Shown here piece by piece: positions 23,793-25,537 of a DNA stretch of 27,994 nt. The stretch comes from a virus: the IMG/VR virus record IMGVR_UViG_3300025853_000511, positions 1 through 27,994 of that record, one strand, 5' to 3'. Under the pieces are notes generated by a model that was not told the origin of the DNA, did no database searches, and was given only the letters and a program-made list of their open reading frames with translations. The first letter of the stretch is position 1. Each line of letters starts with the position of its first letter. A program made the position numbers and the translations under genes.

Positions 23793-24180
23793 TTACACTA
23801 GGGTTGTTGGTGCGCGGGAATATGTTTTGTCTGGCTATGAAACGTGGATTGATGTCCACGAGTTGACAGTTCATATTAGCAAAGGCAAAGGCGGGATTGA
23901 GGTGGCTGTCTATCGGCGCGAAGATGATGGCTATACACCGCCAATATCGTCAATGCGGGTGCAATATGAGCGTTATGACGTTAAAACGCCATTGGTGCTT
24001 GATCTGGACAATAAGCCAGCAAGACGCACCGTCATACAGGAAGGTGATGGATCATTTCAGAGGCGACTAGACAGAGATGTTTGTCCGAAATGCAAAACAT
24101 CCTTGCAAAAAACGCAAAAAAAGACGCTCAAGTGCGTTGCTTGCAAGCTGGAAATCAACACTGATGGAAACGCAAGCTGA
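23779..24180 (+). CDS. Hypothetical protein with C-terminal zinc ribbon
   Basis: The 133-residue protein (MAVNDYTRVVGAREYVLSGY start) has a beta-rich N-terminal domain with ETWIDVHELTVHISKGKGG and a C-terminal ribbon DVCPKCKTSLQ ... TLKCVACKLEI, giving two CxxC pairs. ATG 23779 sits 6 nt after gggg; ATG 23773 would add two residues. It overlaps the previous gene by 14 nt and the next by 17 nt. I do not recognise the N-terminal domain. Confidence 0.7.
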   Translation: MAVNDYTRVVGAREYVLSGYETWIDVHELTVHISKGKGGIEVAVYRREDDGYTPPISSMRVQYERYDVKTPLVLDLDNKPARRTVIQEGDGSFQRRLDRDVCPKCKTSLQKTQKKTLKCVACKLEINTDGNAS

Positions 24181-24574
24181 CCTAAATCGCGAAGCGCAAG
24201 TGATCAAGCGTGTTTGCAATCATTTCAATTGCGAGGCGTTGAAGCTACCAACGCATCAGCGGCTGGATTTTGCGTTGACACGGCAAGCCGACATTGTGGC
24301 ATTTGCTGAGATAAAAGTGCGGCGATGTGCGTCTGATGCCTACAAAACGGCGATGATACATCTCGACAAGGTTATCTTTGCTCATCAGCTAGCAGATATT
24401 GCAAGCACTCCGGCCTTTTTGTTTATTCAATGGACCGATGGTTTGGGTTATGTAGATTTCAAATCCAGCTTTTACACAAGACTGGGCGGGCGAACAGATC
24501 GCGGCATTGTCAAGGATTACAGCTTGGTTGCCCACTATCCGATGGAAAATTTCAAGTTTATAGGTGAAAAATGA
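24164..24574 (+). CDS. PD-(D/E)XK-like protein
   Basis: The 136-residue product starts METQADLNREAQVIKRVCNH and shows a nuclease-like core: E10 in the first helix, RLDFALTRQ with D35, and ADIVAFAEIKVRR with E49 and K51. The C-terminal half has FLFIQWTDGLGYVDF strands. Together with the proteins at 19303, 22054 and 22983 it makes four members of this fold. The start at 24164 is inside the previous gene's 3' end, and the longer frame from 24077 only shadows it. The role could be replication-associated, given the adjacent initiator operon. Confidence 0.68.
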   Translation: METQADLNREAQVIKRVCNHFNCEALKLPTHQRLDFALTRQADIVAFAEIKVRRCASDAYKTAMIHLDKVIFAHQLADIASTPAFLFIQWTDGLGYVDFKSSFYTRLGGRTDRGIVKDYSLVAHYPMENFKFIGEK

Positions 24575-24837
24575 AACGTGCAGAAATACTAGATGAGGCA
24601 AAAGAGTGCGTAATGGTGGACCGTGCAGCTGATCACGGCGACTTGGAGGACAATTTTGTCTTGATTGCCCGCTATTGGTCAAATCATCTGGATGCACAGA
24701 TCACGCCAGCTGATGTCGGGATTATGATGACCTTGCTGAAAATCGCCAGAATGAAAGGCAACCCCAACCACAAAGACAATTATCGCGATGGTGCTGGTTA
24801 TATGGCGTGTGCTTATGAGGTGTCCAATGTCGATTAA
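24571..24837 (+). CDS. DUF6378-like protein
   Basis: The 88-residue helical protein starts MKRAEILDEAKECVMVDRAA and continues DHGDLEDNFVLIARYWSNHL, with MMTLLKIARMKGNPNHKDNY and a final DGAGYMACAYE. I recognise this as the phage-associated family annotated DUF6378. The conserved His, Asp and Glu residues in an all-helical body recall MazG/HD-like metal-binding helix bundles, but the function is not established. It overlaps both neighbours (ATGA with the previous gene, 11 nt with the next). Confidence 0.78.
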   Translation: MKRAEILDEAKECVMVDRAADHGDLEDNFVLIARYWSNHLDAQITPADVGIMMTLLKIARMKGNPNHKDNYRDGAGYMACAYEVSNVD

Positions 24838-25537
24838 AGCACTAGACTGGGCGATGGAAACGCCACTGAAAGACCCGCTGGCGAAGCTGGTGTTGATTTG
24901 TATCGCAAACCACCACAATCCGTCACACGGCTATGCTTGGCCTTCCGTGGGCCACTTATGCCACATTACTGGCGCAAGCGATGCCACAGTGCGCCGGAAG
25001 CTGAAACAGCTAGAGGAATTGGGGCTGATAACACGCAAGCATCGGGCTGGCAGATCAACGTCATATTTCCTGCAATTTGACACCCCTGTCACACAGACAG
25101 TCCTATCACACAGACAGGACACCCCTGTCACAGTGACAGGTATAACCCTTAAAGAACCGTTAAATAAAAATAAGGGCAAAACGAAAGTTTCAGATTGGAT
25201 GCCATCAGAGGCTGATAAGGAGTGGGCAATTGATAATGGTGCAGACTGGCACGACACACTTACCAGCATCAAGCTATGGTCAAAGCAGAATGGCGACAAA
25301 GCCGCATATGTGGATATGTCGGCCTTTTGGCAAAACTGGATCAGACGCGATAAAAGCCGGAAACCAGCTTCAAAGCAAATGTCTGTTGCAAAGCCGGACA
25401 AGCACGAGACCAGTGCAAAGCTGATGCTGGCGCGGTGGGAAACGCTCACACCCTCACAGCAATCAGACTGGTATAACCGGAACCCTGTCATCAGAGCGCA
25501 TATTGACCGGCAAAATAAAAGTGCAGAAAAAGTGTGA
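24827..25537 (+). CDS. Winged-helix replication initiator-like protein (lambda O-type role)
   Basis: The 236-residue protein starts MSIKALDWAMETPLKDPLAK and carries a DnaD/RepA-like winged helix. Its recognition part is SVGHLCHITGASDATVRRKL and KQLEELGLITRKHRAGRSTS. A linker (about residues 85-106) encodes repeated DTPVT-type motifs because the DNA there holds iteron-like inverted repeats. The C-terminal part has FWQNWIRRDK and a Trp-rich end. No helicase or polymerase gene is present, so it probably recruits the host replisome. It would bind the origin in its own gene, as lambda O does. The start at 24827 is chosen over 24788 because it keeps the domain start and overlaps by 11 nt. Confidence 0.8.
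   Translation: MSIKALDWAMETPLKDPLAKLVLICIANHHNPSHGYAWPSVGHLCHITGASDATVRRKLKQLEELGLITRKHRAGRSTSYFLQFDTPVTQTVLSHRQDTPVTVTGITLKEPLNKNKGKTKVSDWMPSEADKEWAIDNGADWHDTLTSIKLWSKQNGDKAAYVDMSAFWQNWIRRDKSRKPASKQMSVAKPDKHETSAKLMLARWETLTPSQQSDWYNRNPVIRAHIDRQNKSAEKV
25086..25180. other. Candidate replication origin: iterons plus AT-rich segment
   Basis: Three related inverted repeats lie in tandem: ctgtcacacagacag (25086-25100), ctatcacacagacag (25103-25117) and the perfect 17-nt palindrome cctgtcacagtgacagg (25124-25140). Immediately right of them, from 25141 to about 25180, is an AT-rich stretch with taaa and aataaa runs, suited to strand opening. They lie inside the initiator gene between its winged helix and C-terminal part. 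Placement of iterons and an AT-rich element within the initiator gene is the lambda arrangement. Confidence 0.7.

Follow-up and report, generated by a model that had tools for sequence, protein, structure and literature searches.

A probable replication origin inside the initiator gene of an HTH_36 phage, with counterpart repeats in related genes

Iteron origins that lie within the gene of their own initiator are an already known arrangement. In phage lambda, iterons and an AT tract occupy the middle of the O gene (PMC7466680), and in the RepA_N initiator of plasmid pSK41 four Rep boxes lie in the DNA that codes for the linker (PMC5703833). In repABC replicons, oriV is found within repC; it is AT-rich, silent mutations are harmful to it, and iterons have been reported absent (PMC3155836). 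The staphylococcal plasmid pPR9 has a hybrid initiator, an HTH_36 N-terminus on the pSK41 C-terminus, and its mini-replicon replicates (PMC5703833). Here we describe a probable case of this arrangement within HTH_36 phage initiators.

We analyzed a 28-kb virus record (27,994 nucleotides), called the window below. Its positions 25086-25175 are very probably a phage replication origin located inside the initiator gene. In the mechanism that we propose, the initiator would bind three inverted repeats through its N-terminal winged helix, probably as one dimer on each; the nucleoprotein complex formed on these iterons would open the adjoining AT-rich tract; and the C-terminal part of the initiator would help to recruit the host helicase or primosome. 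The features of the locus, in window coordinates, are these:

24827-25537, plus strand: replication initiator gene, with ATG at 24827; 236 aa comprising a winged helix, a disordered linker and a helical C-terminal part, as predicted from HTH_36, PHROG and AlphaFold
24833-25072, plus strand: winged-helix DNA-binding domain (aa 3-82), with the recognition helix at aa 52-64 including Arg57, as predicted from profile, model and fold matches
25052-25189, no strand: unchanged codons 76-121 (46 codons), spanning the repeats and the AT tract, with zero synonymous or non-synonymous change relative to the related locus L004
25086-25100, no strand: iteron 1, CTGTC-n5-GACAG, sequence CTGTCACACAGACAG
25103-25117, no strand: iteron 2, CTATC-n5-GACAG, sequence CTATCACACAGACAG, with one arm mismatch and in a codon frame unlike that of iterons 1 and 3
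25125-25139, within 25124-25140, no strand: iteron 3, CTGTC-n5-GACAG, sequence CTGTCACAGTGACAG, 17-nt form CCTGTCACAGTGACAGG, in the same codon frame as iteron 1
25141-25175, plus strand: presumed DNA-unwinding element, an AT-rich tract in which AACC occurs twice, at 25144 and 25155 (11 nt apart)

Pfam and PHROG profile searches were run on a translation begun at 24830, one codon inside the start. The window protein matches HTH_36 (PF13730; E 6.7e-12, 45.5 bits against a gathering score of 25), a family matched by all 16 of 16 aligned relatives, as well as PHROG replication initiation families (phrog_1032 at E 5.8e-21, also phrog_270 and phrog_391). An AlphaFold model made from 16 sequences places helices and a wing at aa 3-82 and disorder at aa 86-115 (pLDDT <50), followed by a helical C-terminal part; because its pTM is 0.37, the relative placement of the domains is not to be trusted. 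The disordered stretch coincides with the repeat-bearing DNA, in agreement with an earlier, preliminary description of this sequence that had put the repeats between the winged-helix domain and the C-terminal part. Since the linker protein is disordered, the linker DNA is free to carry binding sites. A fold search, well tested for aa 2-89 only, returned generic winged helices, including the CAP-DNA complex 2cgp (Z 8.7) and the RepA_N-type initiator 4pt7 (Z 8.5). The C-terminal part has no Pfam, PDB-sequence or NCBIfam match; the look of its sequence and weak PHROG "primosomal" matches suggest that it may be DnaT-like, and hhalign against an annotated DnaT-like relative gave a probability of 11%. 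No helicase or P-type helicase loader was recognized among the genes scanned beside the initiator gene, in a record that may be a fragment and with some small genes outside the scan.

The closest likeness in layout is to lambda ori in O and its lambdoid and Stx-phage relatives, where inverted-repeat iterons and an AT tract also occupy the DNA for the linker that joins an N-terminal DNA-binding domain to a C-terminal part (PMC7466680, PMC6022878); the lambda O repeats, too, stand in several frames (0, 2, 2, 1). The preliminary description held that the layout copies lambda ori. As an analogy of layout this stands, but the two proteins share no family: lambda O matches PF04492 (Phage_rep_O) at E 5.7e-36, whereas the window protein does not match it at E up to 1, and BLASTP finds no similarity between them. 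The iteron sequences are unrelated, as had been supposed, and no P gene was recognized in the window. RepA_N initiators such as that of pSK41 share with the window a winged-helix N-terminus, origin-type repeats in linker DNA and a separate C-terminal module (PMC5703833); however, they belong to another family (PF06970, absent from the Pfam matches of the window protein up to E 1) and to plasmids rather than phages, and have another C-terminal domain. By analogy, the window segment would work like lambda ori in O and the RepA_N origins, although Pfam places its protein in neither family. A review names pUSA03 as a carrier of the HTH_36 hybrid initiator, but the first rep gene of this plasmid (NC_007792; L368:101-1060) matches PF06970, carries four GTGTC-n5-GACAC boxes in linker DNA and is therefore used here as a RepA_N control only. 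The pPR9 initiator, compared by its published description, has an HTH_36 N-terminal domain as the window does, and there this domain varies together with the roughly 500 bp of origin region next to it as one block (PMC5703833), an experimental precedent for block exchange. RepC is like the window in having its origin in the initiator gene and unlike it in reportedly having no iterons; the RP-C profile (PF03428) weakly matches the window winged helix at E 3.4e-4 and 20.9 bits, under the cutoff of 24.4.

The three inverted repeats previously seen in the linker are indeed present, at 25086, 25103 and 25125. They are 15-17 nt each and lie entirely in linker codons of the initiator gene, and their start-to-start spacing of 17 and then 22 nt means that they occupy two different reading frames. 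The last had been called a perfect 17-nt palindrome, and 25124-25140 pairs throughout, apart from the unpaired center base inherent to an odd length. Exact matches to the pattern CTRTCACANNGACAG in the whole 28-kb record are the three iterons only; allowing up to two mismatches gives 6 matches where 0.97 are expected (6 was reached in 0 of 100 shuffles), one of the 6 being the iteron 3 palindrome counted again on the opposite strand. A three-member palindrome family within 60 nt appeared in 4 of 1,000 synonymous-codon shuffles and 0 of 1,000 base shuffles of the initiator gene, and in the tiled window it was confined to two overlapping 300-nt tiles, both over the iterons. A plain 6-mer count was too weak as a repeat statistic and was replaced by repeat-cluster and general repeat scores. 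The general repeat score of the initiator gene is z 4.7 (z 9.8 for lambda O, the positive control); for the 22 other window genes it is 3.2 at 24077-24574 and at most 1.1 in the remainder. The gene at 24077-24574, the sole other one with a raised score, carries a phage PDDEXK_14 nuclease domain. Elsewhere in the window, the gene at 63-1244 adjoins a terminase small subunit gene; its N-terminus matches ParB-like partition families, and along its length it also matches families of DNA methyltransferases.

Comparison with loci from IMG/VR, phages and plasmids (L numbers) shows how widely such repeats occur. The preliminary description had looked to relatives with conserved initiator ends and a repeat-free linker as evidence against an origin; the cluster that scored best within the gene proved to be the linker repeats, at aa 85-117, in 27 of 29 non-redundant relatives. 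The exceptions are L079 and L090, and scores near those of shuffles were obtained for L012, L030 and L079. Of 17 plasmid and phage initiators fetched independently, most also have their best cluster in the linker; no repeat cluster was detectable in L374, L376 and L377, three distant relatives from outside the original sample, and two tblastn scans of genome contigs yielded zero relatives. The spelling of the linker repeats varies by lineage (GTGTC-n5-GACAC, CTGCA-n5-TGCAG, GTGCA-n5-TGCAC, GGCTC-n5-GAGCC, GTGAC-n8, GTGAA-n8 and others), and the repeats stand in mixed frames and encode different peptides. Judged by motif patterns only, the arrangement of winged helix, iterons and AT tract is joined to several C-terminal types, suggesting that modules may be exchanged at the linker. 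In Pseudanabaena phage Pam5 (L016:1501-2289), the initiator ORF has GGGGTCA-type iterons and lies partly in an annotation gap of the deposited record.

Selection on the linker DNA is also visible in the codons. The window gene and L004 differ at 59 codons (47 synonymous and 12 non-synonymous), none of them within codons 76-121, and a like gap without changes separates L005 from L007 at codons 84-120. Across 14 related genes with TGCA-type repeats, synonymous polymorphism affects 2 of 27 linker codons versus 129 of 194 elsewhere (p 3e-9). The earlier proposal that DNA function shapes this segment is well supported, because linker repeats are kept in 27 of the 29 relatives and synonymous change is excluded there. 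It had been based on a repeated DTPVT in the linker, which holds for iterons 1 and 3; iteron 2, in the other frame, encodes LSHRQ, and this frame-shifted copy is stronger evidence for DNA function than the repeated peptide.

The spelling of the repeats follows the recognition helix. When the helices are aligned, an Arg in the place of window Arg57 is accompanied by TG[AT]C linker words (xTGNC), and other residues by TG[AC]A (xTGNA). Among 66 representatives with <90% N-terminal identity, base 5 of the half-site is C in 39 of 39 cases with Arg57 and A in 24 of 27 without (Fisher p 5e-15, with relatedness ignored and with the hypothesis formed on part of the data later counted); the same count made outside the linker gives no association (p 0.32). 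Three of the 27 depart from this: L017 is an O-type protein from enterobacteria that was aligned at the family edge; L229 has just one repeat call, a weak one; and in L016 the half-site anchored on the palindrome is GGTCA, with A as base 5. Calling half-sites blind to the helix gives agreement for most types of helix. The caller with free spacing anchors some palindromes in shifted frames, so statements on base 5 rest on the TGNC/TGNA count and on a two-spacing caller, which itself goes wrong on some genes whose palindromes are weak or overlap. The Arg/non-Arg contrast falls in clusters on a tree, with 6 changes of residue class, and the 3 independent pairs on well-supported branches comprise 2 concordant, 0 discordant and 1 tied; with only 3 such pairs, a tree-based sign test is unable to reach significance. 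When 12 newly fetched initiators with visible repeats were scored by eye, not blind, 10 agreed and 2 (L373 and L379) broke the rule; we therefore judge the covariation to be strong inside the family but to admit exceptions at greater distance.

Two near-neighbor switches are the cleanest. L009 differs from L057-L059 at 12 of 84 N-terminal residues, of which 3 (S53A, A55V and L56K) fall in the recognition helix, and every iteron switches from GTGTC to GGCTC type; the window clade differs from L030 by R57A plus A53R among 22 differences. The geometry of contact between helix residues and half-site is something that we infer from such comparisons. The Arthrobacter phages Orcanus (L378:898-1719) and Abidatro (L383:898-1692) have similar helices, with VQRKL versus VQNKL at the Arg57 position, and repeats of GTGCC versus GTGAA; the pair may represent a natural switch of specificity.

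The AT-rich stretch reported to follow the repeats is located at 25141-25175. In relatives, AAC words on the plus strand after the last iteron are spaced 9-11 nt apart in 66 of 114 intervals, with 175 AAC against 41 GTT in this downstream region. The longest AAC chain averages 2.48, compared with 1.84 in synonymous shuffles, a modest signal per gene, and 60 of the 82 longest chains fall in the linker region. AAC repeats about every 10-11 nt past the last iteron are thus a second, weaker signal. A role for them in melting or loading is plausible, because unwinding elements with strand-specific ssDNA motifs have precedents with plasmid Rep proteins and with DnaD (PMC4081077, PMC10201434). AACC or GAACC words every 10-12 nt right after the last iteron, on one strand, were seen in several host phyla (window 25141-25175, L369, L371, L373, L378, L380 and L381).

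The covariation of helix and repeats indicates protein binding, not replication as such, and most winged helices are transcription regulators; the iterons might thus be operators by which the initiator represses or tunes transcription of its own gene or of downstream ones, and the origin might lie elsewhere. We consider this unlikely: the sites are within coding sequence, and a pattern search of the record found none upstream of the gene; in relatives, an AT-rich tract and phased AAC words come after the sites; the PHROG families matched are replication initiators; and known in-gene repeats with such a layout are origins (PMC7466680, PMC5703833). It is less likely still that the inverted repeats act in mRNA, as hairpins for translation or termination control. 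The strong folding of the segment as RNA (-23.9 kcal/mol, z -3.9) speaks for hairpins but is expected from inverted repeats anyway, Rfam gave no match, and hairpins would predict neither that repeat spelling tracks a recognition-helix residue nor that all copies switch together.

Selection for the DTPVT peptide, with the DNA repeats as a by-product, would account for the identical peptides of copies 1 and 3. It strikes us as highly improbable given that copy 2 is out of frame with the others, synonymous sites are frozen, the repeats exceed those of synonymous shuffles, and relatives have mixed frames and different peptides in a linker predicted to be disordered. Cumulative GC skew, a check proposed in the preliminary description, was run on the record and gave no usable origin signal; skew here tracks gene strand and is for that reason uninformative. 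An origin inside the initiator gene is the reading that we retain.

Older comparative work on lambdoid origins exists. In the searchable literature, which mostly leaves out subscription papers, we came upon no account of linker iterons that covers the HTH_36 initiators as a family, and the covariation between helix and half-site may be new to the literature. More tentatively, and somewhat short of calling it probable, we suggest from the sequence comparisons that, across Proteobacteria and Actinomycetota, the HTH_36 initiators of phages and phage-plasmids share a portable cassette (a winged helix, linker iterons that it recognizes itself, and AAC every 10-11 nt) joined to several unrelated C-terminal modules, in which the pairing of Arg57 with C at base 5, and of other residues mostly with A, would amount to a recognition code readable from genomes. 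The comparative code and a cassette common to several hosts are the part that might surprise specialists. Each such gene appears to pair a DNA-binding domain with its target within a few hundred nt; many phage genomes would therefore supply matched protein-target pairs, making a joint change of specificity in initiator and origin directly testable. Origin prediction in uncharacterized phages and phage-plasmids would become possible, and synonymous recoding of such initiator genes may abolish replication.
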